From the NCBI GenBank assembly GCA_001599915.1, contig BCIG01000045.1, positions 1 to 31,684 of the forward strand: a DNA stretch of 31,684 nucleotides. Reading direction: 5' to 3'. Position numbers and translations under genes: made by a program. This document shows positions 3,469 through 31,684 of the stretch, piece by piece. The notes under the pieces are model-generated. The model worked only from the letters and a program-made list of their open reading frames with translations. It was not told where the DNA came from and made no database searches. Origin of the DNA: Symbiotaphrina buchneri. Taxonomy: Eukaryota; Ascomycota; Symbiotaphrinales; Symbiotaphrinaceae. Every line of letters starts with the position of its first letter. The stretch's first letter is position 1.

Positions 3469-5187
3469 CTAGCCGGGGCCCTCCTTCAATACTGTCCCTT
3501 CCTTCTCCTCTATGACCTCCGGGGATGATGAGCCCCTCGCACGATTCTCGCAATACGCCTTGACGACCTGGACGACCCTCCTCCGCTCGTCAGGCCAGTC
3601 AAAGACCTGTGCATGGTCTAACTTCTCGAACCAGAGTATCTCCAGCCCATCGCCTGTCCAGGGACGGGTCTTCCAGATTTGCTCGCCGTCAGCAGTAGCG
3701 GATTGATCTGAGCGTGCAGAGAGCAGCGGTTTGCGCTCGGCATGGCCGTTTGGAGAAGCGGGCTCGGCGTCAATGGGCACAGTAGGGGTCGGTACTCTCT
3801 TGCCCTGCGCCAGCCACGCGCCGACAACGGGCGTATCGACGATGAGATCCCTGCCTCCGAGCACGACCGTCGCGGGGCGCGGCTCGGCGCCATCCTCTCC
3901 GCCTAGGACGTCCTCCATCCACAGGACGTTCTCGCTCCAGAAGAAGCGGCGGGCGAGGGTATGCGCGACGAGGGGGTCCTTGCTGGCGAAATATCACAGC
4001 TGCAGCTCGTTGGCGCGGCGCGGGCGGCGGTGCGTGAAGTTGTACGCTACGTCTGGGAGGTGCAGGAGGAAGACGACGGGGTCGATGAGCACGAGCGCGG
4101 CGATGCGTGGCGCGAGTGAAGGCGTGTGCAGGAGGTGGGTGGAGACGACGCTACCGTAGCTGTGTGAGACTAGTATGAAGCGCTCCCAGTTGTGGAAGGC
4201 GAGGATCCGCGCGATCTCTTGCACCATGGCTTCTTTGCGGAGGGCGGGCGCGGTGAGTCGGAAGCTGATGGGGAGGAGCTCGACGGCGATGATGCCGATG
4301 GATGTGTCGGTGAGAGCGGAGTTGCAGTTGTTCAGCTCGTTGAGGAAGGTGACATAGGGGAGCAGACCGATGCCGATGCCGTGGATGAAGAGCACGGGAA
4401 GCTCGGTTTTGGAGGTGTGGGGCCGGTACCAATATGCGACGGACTCGGTGGGCGCACGATGGGGGCTTAGAAGGGCGACTGGCCGTAGAGGGAAAGAGGA
4501 GAAGAAGCTCAGAGGCGAGGGTCTGTAGAATGCGAAGGAGTTGTAGAGGAGCCGGCAGGACGTGTAGGTGTCCACAAAGAAGACAATCTGCACACTAATT
4601 AGTGTCCCTGATGCGGCGTTTCTTCAAGAGGTAATTATGCTCACCATATACCAGGTCAAGCTCCTCGGTAGCACATGGATCTCATCCAACGTCAACCGCA
4701 AGCACTTGGCGCTTCCACGCCCATGGGGTATCTCCCTATGAAGAAGGTCTTCCATCATGCAAACATATTCCTCCAGCTCTTCATCATCCTGGGGATGGAC
4801 GTCCCCTTTGTTGAAGAACGCCCATCGCAGGAACTCTTTGACATTATCTCGTCTTATCTCCTCCGCCGGCGCGTCCAGGAACCATTTCTCGAGGTACCGC
4901 TCAGGGTCCGTGACGCTATCCAGACATCGCTTGTATAGTGCGCGGCGTTGTTCCCGGCTGACCAGCTCCGGGTGGACAGTGGCTTTCTGAATATAGACGG
5001 CAAGAGGCAGCGAGACCAGCAGGAAGAAGGCGCTTTCACATGAAAGCCAGACGGTGAGGATCCAAGGTATATGAACTCGGACGAAGTAGGACAAGACTAG
5101 TATCACGAGGCTGGCCGGCGGAAGATACTGGAAGAAGAGAGTGCATATTCGAATGGAGATATATTCCCCTGTCGACGTTCCCAACAT
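3469..5187 (-). pseudogene. Alpha/beta hydrolase with one in-frame TGA
   Basis: Two exons (5187-4645 and 4587-3469) with a 57 nt intron (GTGAGC...GTGCAG). Exon 1 begins MLGTSTGEYISIR and has hydrophobic segments around residues 15-65, suggesting a membrane anchor. Exon 2 has the oxyanion-loop motif LFIHGIG (HG 250-251) and the nucleophile elbow SHSYGS (Ser324). Downstream are GGRDLIVDT, with the likely acid, and LDHAQVFDW, with the likely catalytic His. The frame would encode 553 residues, but codon 379 (3996-3994) is TGA inside ANELQL-stop-YFASKDP. Related proteins, as I recall, carry Trp there (TGG), so a single G to A change explains it. The stop comes after the nucleophile but before the predicted acid and His, so a product ending there should be inactive. 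The 174 codons after the stop remain open and family-like, which points to a recent mutation, a base-call error or read-through. Substrate unknown. Confidence 0.8.
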
Positions 5188-12300: not shown

Positions 12301-12458
12301 TTTTACGCCTGAAAACTTACGATCTTGTCGAAAACGAACTTTGATAGTTGTTCTCGACTTCTACGATTACACTCCCTTCAAGAACTCCGTCCGGCACGAT
12401 AGTTCTTCAACAACAACACCACATCGCCAGCTTAGTCTCCGTCAACAAAGCTTCCACC
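9359..12458. other. Long gene-poor interval
   Basis: 3.1 kb between the divergent YIH1 and LPMO start codons. Frames on either strand are at most 140 codons (9815-10237 minus, 10613-10936 minus) and show no family I recognise. There is no transposase, reverse transcriptase, tRNA or long repeat. The left 250 bp should hold the YIH1 promoter and the last few hundred bases the LPMO promoter. Eroded gene remnants or non-coding transcripts cannot be excluded. Confidence 0.5.
12249..12256 (+). promoter_or_regulatory. TATA-like element upstream of the LPMO gene
   Basis: TATTAATA lies about 200 bp before the chosen LPMO start. Its position and AT-richness in a GC-mixed context fit a TATA-type promoter. 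This is a composition-based guess. Confidence 0.3.
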
Positions 12459-13655
12459 ATGCATTCCCGGAACACGGTTTTGACCGCCGCTCTCGGCCTC
12501 TTGAGCTGTGTCACAGTCACCAATGCCCATATGATCATGGCAAACCCTGTCCCCTATGGAAAATCCACTCTCACCAACGGCCCCCTGGCCGCCGACGGCA
12601 GCGACTTTCCATGCAAGCAACGAACGGGAGTCTACGATGCGGAGGGCGCAGATAATCAGATGGCTTTGGGCTCTACTCAGGAGCTTAGCTTTATTGGTAC
12701 TGCGGTACACGGTGGTGGTTCATGTCAGGTTTCAATAAGCTATGACGAGAACCCTACAGCATCTAGCACCTGGAAGGTCATCCATTCGATTATCGGTGGT
12801 TGTCCGGCACGCGGACAAACTGGCAACCTTCCCGGAGACGACGCCACCCTCCCCGCGCCTGATACTTACAACTTCACGATCCCGGATGGCTTGCCCACGG
12901 GAACAGCGACTCTCTCATGGTCCTGGAACAACAAAATAGGCAACAGAGAGTTCTATCAGAACTGCGCGCCTATAACATTGACCGGCGGAAGTTCAAAGCG
13001 TGATGTCTCCACGCGGGATACAAATGCCTTCTACAACAGCTTGCCGGACATGTTCGTGGCGAACATCCCTCGGACAGAGTGTGGAACGGTCGACTCAACA
13101 GATGTGAAATACCCCAACCCCGGCGACTCTGTTGACTATGAAGGTACGCAAACCTCGAGTGCCATATCGACACCTACCGGCACTGCCTGTCAACAGGCCA
13201 CAGGCGGGAGTGCCTCTGGCTCTGCTGTTTCGACTGGCGCTGCTTCTGTCGCAGCTACTTCCGCCGCCGCCTCTTCAGCCTCAAATAATGGAGGTGGCTT
13301 CTATGCTCCTTCTTCCTCTGCTGTGGCCACACCAGCCGCGTCCTCCGTTGTGGTTACTTCAGTTGCAGTGGCATCACCATCGGCGGTTGCTTCAGCCTCG
13401 TCTGTATCCGGCGGGAATAGCAGTTCAGCTGGTGCCCAGACCGCTAGCACCGCTTGCTCCACAGAAGGCGAATTCAACTGCATTGGAGGCAGCAGCTTTC
13501 AGCAATGTGCTAGTGGAGTTTGGTCTGTCGTGCAGCAGATGGCAGCTGGGACTACTTGCACTAGTGGAGAGAGTGAAAGCCTTCAGATTGCGGCTGGCAA
13601 GCATCGGCGCAACGTCCGCTTCTCCCACGGTCATCTTCGCCGGAACATGTTGTAG
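12459..13655 (+). CDS. Secreted AA11 lytic polysaccharide monooxygenase with C-terminal X278-like module
   Basis: Single-exon frame of 398 residues. I chose ATG 12459, although the frame is open further upstream, because it sits in TTCCACCATG and starts a 23-residue signal peptide (MHSRNTVLTAALGLLSCVTV, then TNA). Cleavage after TNA leaves His as residue 1 in HMIMANPVPYG, the hallmark of AA11. In mature numbering, the second copper-brace His is His61 (AVHGGGSCQ) and the axial Tyr is Tyr143 (REFYQNCA). These are close to His60 and Tyr140 of the characterised Aspergillus oryzae enzyme. A Ser/Ala/Thr-rich, probably O-glycosylated linker covers about residues 265-350. A Cys-rich module (CSTEGEFNCIGGSSFQQC to AAGTTC) then resembles X278, which is attached to many AA11 proteins and implicated in chitin binding. 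The enzyme should oxidatively cleave chitin outside the cell or in wall remodelling. All key residues are present. Confidence 0.92.
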   Translation: MHSRNTVLTAALGLLSCVTVTNAHMIMANPVPYGKSTLTNGPLAADGSDFPCKQRTGVYDAEGADNQMALGSTQELSFIGTAVHGGGSCQVSISYDENPTASSTWKVIHSIIGGCPARGQTGNLPGDDATLPAPDTYNFTIPDGLPTGTATLSWSWNNKIGNREFYQNCAPITLTGGSSKRDVSTRDTNAFYNSLPDMFVANIPRTECGTVDSTDVKYPNPGDSVDYEGTQTSSAISTPTGTACQQATGGSASGSAVSTGAASVAATSAAASSASNNGGGFYAPSSSAVATPAASSVVVTSVAVASPSAVASASSVSGGNSSSAGAQTASTACSTEGEFNCIGGSSFQQCASGVWSVVQQMAAGTTCTSGESESLQIAAGKHRRNVRFSHGHLRRNML

Positions 13656-25722: not shown

Positions 25723-28700
25723 ATGCCGGACACATATAGGCACCCCGGAACCATGATGGGTCGGCCGGATCCTTCATTTGCGCAGCAGGACCAAGCTTGG
25801 GGTACCGGGAGGAGTGAAATTGGGTATAATTCTACAAGAGGAGACTATCAAGGGGCACCATACAGATCAAGTGAATACGATCGACCAAGGGTTACCCAAC
25901 TTCCCCCTGTTCGCGAGTTATTCGCTGCTCATTCGGACCCTCCGCCCACATATTCACGGCCTGCTTATTCTTCAGCTTGGGCTGCCGAGTCCACATTGGA
26001 TCGGCGACCTTCTCCACATCATGGCTCTTTGCCAGATGACAGATCACGAAACTATCCATATCCTGGGTCACATACAGCATCACCAGCCACCTACCCTGTG
26101 GACATCCATCGGGATCCTCCAAGGTCCGGCCCGAATCTAGCATACGAAACAGCGTCTACACCCCGTGTACTACAACCTCCACCTTACGCTACCACTCAAA
26201 CATCCGCTCCATTACCCCATACTACCCTCCCGACTACTGAACATTCGCGGATTCATTATGGTCAGGACCACCTTACGTCCCTCTCACTATCCAAACAGCA
26301 CGATTATCGAGACTATCCTCCGCCTTCTCCGGGTCCTCACTCCCCGAACTCCGCTCACACTCCTCGCCGAACTGGACTAAACGGACAGCCTCTTCCTAAG
26401 TTCGTTGGGGAAGTTGATGTACCTGGTGAAGGTATATGTTACCTTTACGACGACGGCTCACATTGCAAGAAGTTCATCAATGGTGAAAAGGTCAATGAGC
26501 AATGGGGGGTGACAAAGGCTGGGAAACCACGGAAACGACTGGCGGTTGCTTGCCTCAACTGTCGCGAGAAGAAGATCAAATGCGAGCCAGCCGAACCAAA
26601 ATGCGCCCAATGCGAGAAGAGCGGGAAGGAGTGCATCATGAATACGTGAGTACTTGATCAACTTCCCTTTTCTGCGATCATCCTGGTTCCTGTGCTGGTC
26701 ACGAGGGCATGACAACCTCCCCTGCCGTCTTCGATTCTATGCGAATACGCGCATTCCAATCTCTTGTCATCATTGCCCGGCAACTGTTCAATCCCTTCAC
26801 GGGAAGGCTATGCTATGTGACCACATGATGCCTCTTTTATTGGGTGTTTTCTGCAGTTACCCGCTGCAAATAATCTGCACATAGCATGCATATTACTCCT
26901 GATCGGCCTTGAGTGTTACACAAGATACGATTCAACTGCTAACACCAATATAGTCCGCGCGCTGCACATCAGGTCACTCCTGACACTCCGGAATTTCGCG
27001 TGTACGACAGGAAGCCAGTTGACGCTGTTGAACGACCACGGATACGCTCTAGCGAGGAAAGAAAGCCCCAACTACCGTACGATCCTAAACGGCGGCGGAG
27101 TTCCCATACATCGGAAGAGGAAGCTTCAAGTCCAAGGGTAGGCCGCTCGGAGGGGCTTAAGGCAGAGAAACATGCCGGCAAAAAGACGAGGCGGGAGTCG
27201 TCAGGCTCGTCTGTTGCTCTCATCAGCGCAGATCGCACACGCTCTAGAAGCAAATCGGATTCGACAAGGGTTCCACTGACAACGCTCATCAACGGAGGAC
27301 ACCAACCAGATTTTGCCGGTCTAGCCCTTAGAGTGGATCGTGAGGACAGGAGTAAAGATCCTTTTGATGGCACGAGGGATCCATATCTCGTCGATCCAGA
27401 CTTGACAACGGAGATGGTCAACTTGTACCTGAGATTCGTCAATGAACCAATCTATGGCTTGTTTCCTACAAGGTCATTCCAACGATGGGTGAAAGAGAAC
27501 AGAGACAAGACCACGGACGAGATTATGGTTTTGTATATGGTCATGGCCATGGGATCGTTATTCTCGCCGAACCGGAAGAGGCCTACTATGAACCACATTC
27601 TTCACTCCGCACGCGATATGGTTCAGGCGCAGCATGGAAACTTCAACTTGCAAATCATGCAGACTCGGCTTCTCTTGTCGGTGTATTACTTTGCGATTGG
27701 AAAGAAGTCGAAGGCATGGGAATGGACGGGTCAAGCTGTCAGGGCGCTGTTTGCGCTGAATTTCCACACTGAAGAAGGGATTGCGGATTTGGATCCTCGA
27801 AGTGACCTCGTCTATGGTCTCAACAAGGATGCCGTGATTGAATGTCGTCGCAGGGCATTTTGGGGCTGCTATCTCCAAGAGGCGAGTACCTTTCCGAAGA
27901 CCATTGAAGCAAGCTAACAATTCGCAGCGTTTCAGCGAATCTTGTTCTAACCGCCCTTCCATTATCAACGATGACGACATCTTCCTCCGTGTGCCATGCT
28001 CTGAGACGACTTTTGATGAACAACGAAATGTTGTTGGACCATTCTTCGAGAATACTGAGATGGATAAGGACAGCGACAATGAAGACCGGGAGACAAGTAT
28101 AGGCCAGATGGGTCTCCAGGTACAGATAACCAGGCTGCTAGGTGGCATTGCAAGAACTTCCTATCGTTTCAAACACAAACCTCCGGGAAGCTACAACATG
28201 CACTACGAGAAGTTCTACCGGGAGAGGCAGCAGCAACTTACCGAGTGGTATACTGGTATACCACAAGGTTTCAAATGTACACCGGAGAACGTCGAGAAAC
28301 ACGCACAGGCCGGCACACTCAATAAGTTCGCGTGTGTGAATGCGCTCTACCGGTACAGCATATTGAAGTTGAACCGACATGCACGGCAATGCCTGCCCCG
28401 GTCCAGCCTCGAGCGTAACATTCGTGCTCTCAGAGAAGAAGCACTATCGACACTTGTTGACATAGGCAAACCCCTTGAAGAAGTGTGCAAGCGACATAGA
28501 AAGACGCTGTCGGATTTTGGCATATCCATTCCGATTTTCGGGTACTGCACCTCGATTGCTGCTGAGATCTTGAGCGCCGGTGGTACGAATCTTCCTGAGA
28601 CTCTGGACCTCATTGGCGCGTGCATGATGGTTCTTGAGGAACAATCGCAGCATTGGGCAAGTTCAAAAGGGCAACTTGCTATGGTGACGAAAATCGTGAA

Positions 28701-28839
28701 GGGTCTGGCCGAGCAGGCGACCCCCGAGAAAGAGGTATTTCGCGTGCTAGTCCCTCCTGAGGAAGGGGAGTCTACGGAGAGCGACATTATACTTGCTACG
28801 CCCGAAGATATCTACCTGGAGACTATCACCGCCGCGTGA
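25723..28839 (+). CDS. Zn2Cys6 transcription factor, RosA/NosA-like
   Basis: Exons 25723-26645, 26954-27881 and 27928-28839 encode 920 residues. The N-terminal 230 residues are Pro/Ser/Tyr-rich and disordered-looking. A conserved lead-in (ICYLYDDGSHCKKFINGEKV, then NEQWGVTKAGKPRKRLAVA) precedes the binuclear zinc cluster, with Cys277, 280, 287, 294, 297 and 304 (C-x2-C-x6-C-x6-C-x2-C-x6-C). This lead-in plus cluster is what I recall from the RosA/NosA regulators of sexual development. Residues about 430-650 form a fungal transcription factor middle homology region (YLRFVNEPIYGLFPTRSFQR, then FWGCYLQERFSES). The protein is longer than RosA or NosA (about 700 residues), so orthology is unsure. 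Intron 1 splits the cluster-coding exon from the rest and is 308 nt, long for this genome. Intron 2 (27882-27927) has a GC donor. It should act in the nucleus as a DNA-binding regulator; targets are unknown. Confidence 0.85.
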
Positions 28840-29380: not shown

Positions 29381-29675
29381 AACCTCGCCTATAATGCTTA
29401 AACCCTCTCCATATTCTTAATCTCCCGGTATGAGGAAACTCGCGCCTATATTCTTGGGAGTACTCAGGTACAGAGGGCCTCGCCTATATTCTTAAAGCCT
29501 CTCCTATATTCTTACTTCTCCGCCTATTTTCCAGAACCTCGCCTATATTCTTAAAGTCGCGCCTATATTCTTAACTCCCCACCGACTCTCAGAACCTCGC
29601 CTATATTCTTAAAACCTCTCCTATATTCTTAGCCTGTCCGCCAATTTTTCAGAACCTCGCCTATAATGCTTAACT
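29381..29675. repeat. Expanded box block at the array's left end
   Basis: CTAT-type box cores occur at 29389, 29410 (degenerate), 29446, 29484, 29504, 29524, 29543, 29563, about 29583 (degenerate), 29601, 29621, about 29642 (degenerate) and 29661. From 29484 the order is A-A-B repeated three times and then C, where A is CTATATTCTTA, B is CTATTTTTCAGAA-like and C is CTATAATGCTTAA. Spacing is 18-21 bp throughout. This looks like local triplication of the box set present once in the other units. Confidence 0.88.
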
Positions 29676-29856
29676 CCTCGGTACAAGGAATAGGCCTGTC
29701 ATACTCCGTAGAGCTTCGCCATTGAACCAATGCCTCACAGATGATTGTACAATCTGTGGAGTGCTAGGGATTGAGAAAAGATGCTTCTTTTGGCTACACC
29801 TTTTGCGCAAGTTGTATAGGCTTTCGCCGGCTCTGTAGTTGGAGTCGCAAGAACTG

Positions 29857-29871
29857 CCCCGCAGCGCGGGG
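29857..29871. repeat. GC hairpin CCCCGC-AGC-GCGGGG in unit 1
   Basis: Perfect 6 bp stem with a 3-base loop, lying 20 bases after GTAGTTGG in the first long unit. Confidence 0.7.
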
Positions 29872-30054
29872 TTTAACGTGCAGTCGGCCGCAACTCCCAG
29901 GCTATCAAGAGATTTCAAATGTTGTCAGGGCGCACCAAACCTCCAGTAACACTCTCTCCTGTTCAAAACAATCCATGAGGACGCATAGTGATTGCTGCCT
30001 CGCTCTTTGCTGGTGGTGATGCCTCTTGCTGATACTTCCAGCAGTCAGTATGCA

Positions 30055-30364
30055 GGTACAGAAACCCTCGCCTATATTCTTAGAACCTCTCCTATATTCT
30101 TTGTTCTACGCCTTTTTTTCAGGAACCTCGCCTATAATGCTTAAGACCTCGGTGCTAGGAATATACCTATCATGCAGCTTCATGGTCAATTCAAGTCCCC
30201 AGAGATAATTGTACAATTTGTTGAGTGCTAGACATTGGGCTTCCTCCGACTTAGTAGTTGGTCGGAATTCTTTGGGACTGGCGCAGGACTTGTCGCATGA
30301 TCCTTCGCAACTATCAGGCCATCAAGAAATTCGGAATGCTCTAGCGGTGGATAGAACATACTGA
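30055..30364. repeat. Short repeat unit 2
   Basis: 310 bp. Box cores at 30072, 30092, about 30112 and 30132 (20 bp steps). Contains the 12 bp palindrome AATTGTACAATT (30207-30218) and ends soon after the GGCCATCAAGAAATT segment. Confidence 0.85.
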
Positions 30365-30833
30365 GGTACGAAAAACCGCGCCTATATTCCTAAAACCTCG
30401 CCTATATTCTTAAATCTTCGCCTATTTCTCAGAACCTCGCCTATAATGCTTAAGCCCTCGATATTAAGAATGTACCTATCATACAGCTTCAATGGTTAAT
30501 TCAAGTCCTTAGAGCTGGTGGGTTAACTTACTGAGTGCTAGGGATTGAGTAAAATTCCTTTCTCATTACAGCTTTTGTACGAATCTTATCGCATTTGTTT
30601 GACTCAGTAGCTGGCCAGAATCCTCTTAACTGCGCCGTGAGGCGCAAAGCTTGTTGCGCGAATGGCGGCCACAACTGCCAGGCCGTCAAGAGATTTGAAA
30701 TGTTGCTTACGGCAGATAAAATTTCCTGTAACTCCCACGTCTATCCAAAACGATTATGCGACGAGATAGTGATGTTTTGAAGTCCTCTTCACAGGGGATG
30801 ATGCATCTCCTCTCTGATTCCCAGCAGTATACA
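30365..30833. repeat. Long repeat unit 3
   Basis: 469 bp. Box cores at 30382, 30402, 30422 and 30441 (20-20-19). Contains a perfect hairpin TGCGCC-GTGA-GGCGCA (30631-30646) and the long-unit extension up to CCCAGCAGTATACA. Confidence 0.87.
30631..30646. repeat. GC hairpin TGCGCC-GTGA-GGCGCA in unit 3
   Basis: Perfect 6 bp stem with a 4-base loop, 24 bases or less after the GTAGCTGG that corresponds to GTAGTTGG of unit 1. Stem bases differ from those of unit 1. Confidence 0.7.
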
Positions 30834-31145
30834 GGTACAGAAACCCTCGCCTATATTCTTAAAACCGCGCCTATATTCTTAAATCACCGCCTATTTTTCA
30901 AAACCTCGCCTATAATGCTTAAGGCCTCGATACGGGGAATGTACCTATCGTACAGCTAACAATCGTTGATTCAAGACCCCAGAACTGATCGCATAAGCCA
31001 TCCAGTGCTAGAAATCTACAGCGGATATTCTCTATTTCGAGTCTCAACTTTTCCTGCAAGTTTCCTTAGTTCTGGTTAGCTCAATGCTTGGTCAAAAGAG
31101 TCTCTGCGACTGGCGCAGGAACTGTCGCAGGTTTCTAGCAGCAAA
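30834..31145. repeat. Short repeat unit 4
   Basis: 312 bp. Box cores at 30851, 30871, 30891 and 30910 (20-20-19). Contains the inverted repeat CTGCGAC/GTCGCAG (31104-31130, 13-base loop) and lacks the long-unit extension. Confidence 0.86.
31104..31130. repeat. Inverted repeat CTGCGAC/GTCGCAG in unit 4
   Basis: Perfect 7 bp arms around a 13-base spacer, after the GCTTGGTC that corresponds to GTTGGTCG of other units. Confidence 0.65.
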
Positions 31146-31654
31146 GGTACAAAAAGCCTCGCCTATATTCCTAAACCCGCGCCTATATGCTTAAATCTCC
31201 ACCTATTTTTCAGAACCTCGCCTATTATACTTAAACTCTTGATACGAGGATGTACCTATTTGTACCTATTGTACGGCGTCAACCATGAGATCTGGCCCCA
31301 GCACTGACTGATGGCGTCACCAGTTGAGTACTAGGGAATTATTGAGAGAATATTCCTCTTTCTTGTCTGCGGATTCTGTGTGATTTTCGTTGGACTTATA
31401 CTGGCTCTGTAGTTGGTCGGTATATCTGGAACAGGGGCAGGGCTTTTCGTGCGATCGATAGCAACCATCAGGCTACGAAGGAGTTGCAAATGCTACTGAC
31501 GGCGCACAGAAATCAATTACTTCCTCTGGCACTTGGTAGTTGCCCGCAACCATATTTCTCGGTCCAGATGGACCTGCATGACCGCATCTTCATACTTTGC
31601 TCTTTGCTGGCTGTGATGCCTCCTGTCTGTTTCCTAGCAGTACGGAGCGAGGGA
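31146..31654. repeat. Long repeat unit 5
   Basis: 509 bp. Box cores at 31163, 31183, 31203 and 31222 (20-20-19). Contains a local duplication of GTACCTATT near 31252-31270 and the long-unit extension (GCAAATGCTACTGACGGCGC to CTAGCAGTACGG). Confidence 0.84.
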
Positions 31655-31684
31655 GGTACAAAGAGCCTCGCCTATATTCTTAAA
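31655..31684. repeat. Start of repeat unit 6, cut by the window edge
   Basis: GGTACAAAGAGCCTCGCC followed by TATATTCTTAAA reproduces the start of the other units, showing that the array continues to the right. Confidence 0.85.

Follow-up and report, generated by a model that had tools for sequence, protein, structure and literature searches.

A single-locus tandem array of conserved, regularly spaced boxes beside a Zn2Cys6 regulator gene in Symbiotaphrina buchneri: a putative protein-binding platform

The window analysed here covers contig C45 from end to end, 31,684 bases of the Symbiotaphrina buchneri genome (23,383,419 bases, 23.4 Mb, 82 contigs). A transcription regulator gene is followed, on the same strand, by a non-coding tandem array that spans 29382 to the contig end at 31684. 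The features are as follows, in window coordinates.

25723..28839, + strand: Zn2Cys6 / Fungal_trans transcription regulator by Pfam; three frames, probably exons
29382..31684, + strand: visible array, 46% G+C against 51% in window 1-29000; apparent continuation at C40:1-2285
29382..29465, + strand: left terminal block (box, box at +20, imperfect palindrome, box); best match is the inverted C40:2190-2285
29466..29680, + strand: first unit, three consecutive box sets with a period of 58-60 bp
29681..30053, + strand: spacer of unit 1, poorly conserved
30054..30170, + strand: box block of unit 2 (boxes 30065, 30085, 30125; weaker third by alignment)
30364..30478, + strand: box block of unit 3 (boxes 30375, 30395, 30434; weaker third by alignment)
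30833..30947, + strand: box block of unit 4 (boxes 30844, 30864, 30884, 30903)
31145..31270, + strand: box block of unit 5 (boxes 31156, 31176, 31215; weaker third by alignment)
31654..31684, + strand: start of unit 6, truncated by the contig end past its first box

The regulator gene had been proposed in an earlier, sequence-only reading of this DNA, and Pfam analysis assigned it a Zn2Cys6 cluster in frame 25723-26649 (PF00172, E 1.5e-8) and Fungal_trans in frames 27000-27917 (PF04082, E 1.1e-14) and 27838-28839 (E 4.9e-4, a match that falls below the curated cut-off). These domains are generic; PDB matches were only to other Zn2Cys6 domains, NCBIfam gave no match for the regulator, and a full-text literature search with its peptide words gave none either. 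Its stop ends at 28839, 542 bases ahead of the first box, in agreement with the distance of about 540 bp estimated earlier. The genome carries at least 143 Zn_clus matches, so adjacency of the array to a Zn2Cys6 gene may be chance.

The same array, in the same orientation, opens contig C40 (43,780 bases) and closes there with an inverted block, bringing the visible total to about 4.6 kb over two contig ends. The sequence-only reading had the array running on past the window; an apparent continuation does exist at the start of C40, and the window end is itself the end of a contig. C45 stops after the first box of a unit, and the second box of a unit is where C40 begins. If the two adjoin without loss, the interrupted unit would measure about 477-478 bp, similar to the other full-length units of 469, 486 and 509 bp. 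We infer that C45 and C40 join, and additional units may be missing between them. On C40, a DUF1996 frame on the - strand (3739-4452; PF09362, E 4.8e-51) has its 3’ side facing the array, an additional - strand frame without a Pfam match reaches down to 2704, and then comes an insulinase-family peptidase, also on the - strand. If the contigs join, the array apparently lies between two convergent genes and faces the 3’ end of each, a position that argues against an ordinary promoter.

The array is composed of boxes of about 16-20 bp with a TATA-like core, grouped in sets. All six GGTAC[A/G] unit starts reported earlier were recovered where they had been seen (29467, 30055, 30365, 30834, 31146 and 31655; n = 6), in the stretch that begins at about 29,382 and closes the contig, and a seventh GGTAC, at 29680, falls within the first block. 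A typical unit runs in the order of a block of CGCC boxes of about 115 bp (first, second, weaker third and fourth box), often an imperfect palindrome, TGTACCTATC or a relative, and a spacer. Examples of the palindrome are CTCG-ATA-CGAG at C40:1084-1094 and CCTCCTATAGAGG at C40:2228-2240. The block of unit 3 is flanked by AGGTACG and TGTACCT, and that of unit 4 by AGGTACA and TGTACCT. Relatives of the 20-mer ACCTCGCCTATATTCTTAAA (≤7 mismatches) number 25 in 29382-31684, all on the + strand, compared with 11 in window 1-28000. For its 14-base core (≤3 mismatches), 16 occurrences were counted in the array, whereas 200 dinucleotide shuffles averaged 0.26 and reached 2 at most; the whole window has 18, compared with a mean of 1.89. 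Boxes keep a single orientation except at the right end: C40 carries 12 on the + strand and 5 on the - strand, the latter in the inverted right end (2145-2282), and one weak box match at C40:2549 lies outside the array.

The spacing of the boxes is nearly fixed. The first and second boxes are exactly 20 bp apart in 13 of 14 pairs (22 bp in the remaining pair), and the second box is followed by the next strong box at 37-40 bp in 13 of 13 measured cases, both counts omitting the set cut by the contig ends. Some blocks deviate from the pattern, namely c3 and the block with a second box at 22 bp. Unit length varies: units 2 and 4 measure 310 and 312 bp owing to different spacer deletions, and the others 469-738 bp.

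Genome-wide searches placed these sequences at one locus. The 16-mer CGCCTATATTCTTAAA at ≤1 mismatch gave 22 matches, every one at the C45 end or in the first 2.3 kb of C40, compared with 0 for its reversed control. A search of the unit against the same genome had been suggested in the earlier reading; blastn of a 479-bp unit returned 14 matches, confined to the C45 end and the C40 start. All 13 matches to CGCCTATA-N40-60-CGCCTATA likewise fell in the array parts (control, 1). Genome repeat counts of this kind are lower bounds, and no further copy of the array was found in the 23.4 Mb genome by the 16-mer, unit blastn and spaced-pair searches. Outside the array, the 18-mer motif has two isolated matches at ≤2 mismatches in the genome. 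At ≤3 mismatches there was no genome-wide excess (110 matches, counting those in the array, compared with 211 for the reversed control), and this absence of enrichment outside the array would be unusual for an ordinary transcription factor.

In wider searches, viral contigs gave 0 exact matches to the box sequence, prokaryote genomes (257 Gb) gave seven contigs with a single 18-mer match each, about the chance expectation, and plasmids had no blastn match to either of two units. A full-text search with four box 11-mers returned no paper on a fungal repeat array, as judged by title, and one on single-locus tandem arrays in filamentous fungi yielded no earlier account of this array among the papers listed.

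With its inverted right end, the locus might be what remains of a mobile element, either a non-autonomous DNA transposon or one of foldback type, having terminal inverted repeats and numerous boxes inside. The left block aligned to the inverted right end of C40 with a score of 105 and 76 of 95 aligned columns matching, whereas 300 mononucleotide shuffles scored 33 at most; its scores against nine ordinary blocks were 52-73, and against block c4 86. Terminal inverted repeats are present, provided that the C45-C40 join holds, and C40:1679-1756 and 2208-2285 form arms that are 92% complementary. However, no second copy was found in 23.4 Mb, no transposase-like frame was noticed on inspection of the stop-to-stop frames, and the boxes are spread over the whole locus rather than just near its ends. 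No target-site duplication was seen by eye beside the outer boxes. We regard an origin as a mobile element as improbable.

Conservation across the array was assessed in alignment A1, which comprises eight units. The identity, column-class and split analyses omitted the left block, the first box set of unit 1 and both right-end blocks. Mean pairwise identity (28 pairs of the eight units; 21 pairs for the last spacer part) was 0.84 in the box block (columns 67-150) versus 0.56-0.60 in three spacer parts. The units are diverged, as had been described, with spacers 56-60% identical. The conserved middle described earlier does correspond to a conserved part, which is the box block at the unit start, the remainder being poorly conserved. 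Within the block, identity was 0.925 in the box cores (52 columns) against 0.525 in the linkers (13 columns), with 0.574 in the spacer; core and linker columns were picked by eye once the alignment had been seen. Since the short linkers are no better conserved than the spacer, gene conversion of whole blocks is not the explanation.

A split test was used that removes the bias of column choice, ancestry common to both halves remaining. Columns of the block that are invariant in u1-u4 had an identity of 0.874 in the other four units versus 0.623 for variable columns, a difference reached in 0 of 5000 permutations, whereas the corresponding values in the spacer were 0.642 and 0.615 (1334 of 5000 permutations). 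This outcome indicates site-specific constraint in the block and none in the spacer by the same test. The locus is an old, worn single-locus tandem repeat whose units are not homogenised and which is under site-specific constraint, an unusual combination. That the boxes are kept far better than the intervening DNA suggests that they bind a protein.

The same data bear on the inert satellite that the earlier reading had listed among its possible roles. Here, units would have arisen by unequal crossing-over in an old local satellite without function, and boxes would be renewed by slippage or short-tract conversion among the 20-bp repeats. Spacers are indeed more alike in some neighbouring units (66-72% among u5, c1 and c2; 63-67% among u1, u2 and u3), as expected from unequal crossing-over, the boxes within a set are alike, and sets are at times doubled or tripled. 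Against this, most units retain distinct signatures for the third box (...TATTTTTC-like) and for the fourth (...AATGCTTAA or ...TATACTTAA), c3 being an exception; slippage between boxes would blur such signatures. In addition, the in-block linkers have diverged as much as the spacers, and the box spacing is maintained. Fungal satellites and subtelomeric repeats are non-coding tandem units, as is this array, which differs in its single locus, its lack of homogenisation, its site-specific conservation and the absence of the telomere repeat (TTAGGG x3) from both C40 and C45, two short contigs. We consider an inert satellite rather unlikely. Of the roles suggested earlier, the protein-binding platform gains from the site-specific conservation and fixed spacing and the inert satellite loses some ground; a phased platform of putative binding sites fits the data better.

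In line with the earlier remark that the units carry no frame of note, stop-to-stop frames are short and inconsistent. A coding array was rejected: the 20-bp period sets first and second boxes in different frames, the spacing from the second to the next box is a multiple of three in only 5 of 13 cases, and variable columns occur at all codon positions. One observation speaks against this rejection: within the fourth box, and there only, variable columns are mostly third positions of one frame. Frames in 29466-31684 show the recurring peptides LAYILK, SPIFLK and SPIMLK (e.g., frame 30732-30959), which we attribute to the repetition of the 20-bp boxes in the DNA.

Transcription into one or more long non-coding RNAs, with the boxes as promoter elements or RNA-protein sites, would agree with the uniform orientation of the boxes except at the right end and with their TATA-like core. 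Yet the spacers are not conserved, and an Rfam search of both array parts at E ≤1 returned only mir-2209 (E 0.7; 20.2 bits against a cut-off of 70). Six folding tests, on both strands of blocks u3, u4 and c2, yielded no RNA fold whose stability clearly exceeded that of shuffles (z -0.46 to 1.86). Over the whole window, Rfam at the gathering score gave no family and ARAGORN no tRNA. The non-coding transcript considered in the earlier reading was in this way checked in part, with no credible Rfam family and no unusual fold in the three blocks, and we judge such a gene highly improbable.

The composition of the locus was also compared with that of fungal centromeres. The array, about 4.6 kb without a recognised gene and with 46-48% G+C against 51-52% around it, could be the core of one chromosome's centromere with chromosome-specific sequence. 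In the sections available of their description, the regional centromeres of Zymoseptoria tritici are short and slightly A+T-rich, with no motif common to the chromosomes (PMC4589918). The array resembles them in shortness and G+C content, but those sections do not describe tandem box arrays as part of the centromeres (PMC4589918). Low-G+C islands on three other contigs provide alternative candidates, and C15, a contig of 722,239 bases with telomere repeats at both ends, shows no such array in its first 200,000 bases. A centromere core is quite improbable.

In that part of C15, the self-similarity search found seven matches at three places; the largest cluster, at about 135.3-136.1 kb, falls in a repetitive, probably coding stretch of diverged repeats (C15:135.1-136.3 kb). 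C15 is probably a complete small chromosome because both ends carry telomere repeats. The low-G+C islands (about 7-36% per 500-base window; genome 51-52%) lie at C15:6.5-10.8 kb, C11:460001-462000 and C20:397501-400500, the first 1.5 kb of the last being mostly N and not counted (1370 of the 6000 bases of the piece are N). They are candidates for RIP-mutated repeats or centromeres.

The RIP indices of the array were mixed. TA/AT was 0.94-1.02 in the array, 0.53-0.68 in its surroundings and 1.24 in the C15 island; the corresponding values of (CA+TG)/(AC+GT) were 1.21-1.23, 1.24-1.37 and 0.48. With the first index raised and the second hardly changed, the array is not plainly RIP-mutated, and the TATA boxes themselves may raise its TA/AT index.

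We give an even chance to the locus being a single-locus, non-coding array of putative sequence-specific protein-binding sites that acts in cis. The fixed, near-helical spacing together with the site-specific conservation points to cooperative binding, with one protein for each set. In the proposed mechanism, one protein or complex would bind cooperatively to each box set along a single face of the DNA, the series of sets would build a nucleoprotein platform, and the platform would act in cis on local chromatin or on the expression of the neighbours. In its most concrete version, which is a guess, the array would be a 3’ control region through which the adjacent gene is regulated, either by its own Zn2Cys6 product or by a factor that acts on that regulator. 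Other conceivable roles in cis are silencing, boundary formation and anchoring.

ADV-1 offers a parallel, being itself a regulator of the Zn2Cys6 class. In the portions available of the Neurospora study, the protein is bound some 3 kb downstream of adv-1, where the 3’ ends of converging genes lie; over-expressing it reduces the expression of the native gene, which suggests negative autoregulation (PMC5217103). The likeness would lie in the Zn2Cys6 gene, the binding 3’ of the gene, the convergent 3’ position (here if the contigs join) and possibly negative autoregulation, and the array could be a strongly developed form of an ADV-1-like 3’ control region. On the other hand, those portions of the ADV-1 study do not mention a tandem array (PMC5217103), and the ADV-1 motif GCGCTTA, with two occurrences in the rest of the window, has none on either strand of either array part. 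Since the motif is missing from the array, the parallel is mechanistic only.

Iterons resemble the boxes in their length of about 20 bp and in a spacing close to whole helical turns. At plasmid origins, according to the part of the source available, such direct repeats are bound by one protein (PMC4980987). The array differs from them in being a nuclear fungal locus at which no replication gene or plasmid was seen.

A more specific form of the platform would be a one-per-genome element that presents phased sites in cis to a dedicated DNA-binding protein, with selection preserving the sites while the units diverged over a long time. Examples would be a built-in binding sink or a 3’ feedback control array serving a regulator gene, or else a site for chromosome-specific anchoring or pairing. 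This more specific form we consider unlikely. We know of no such single-locus phased-site element in fungi. Non-coding tandem arrays are often assumed to be inert; here the spacers have drifted and the boxes and their spacing have held. Confirmation in relatives would make the locus a compact test case for what a single-locus binding-site array does next to a regulator gene. It would also point towards a fungal DNA-binding protein that has essentially a single target locus.

Minor observations concern box intervals, unit length and the remainder of the window. A period of 156 bp accounts, within 3 bases, for four of six box-to-box intervals as its multiples (matched in 22 of 5000 simulations), or for four of seven when the interval spanning the contig junction is included (39 of 5000 simulations). 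This nucleosome-spacing fit was set aside, given the common ancestry of the units and an optimised period. Units 2 (30054-30363) and 4 (30833-31144) are about 160 bp shorter than units 1 and 3, and their near-equal length was considered, on an exploratory basis only, as a possible nucleosome-length effect. Elsewhere in the window, a secreted-looking frame without a Pfam match (12348-13655) carries an HMIMANPVPYG stretch after a signal-like segment, which we take to resemble fungal copper monooxygenases.
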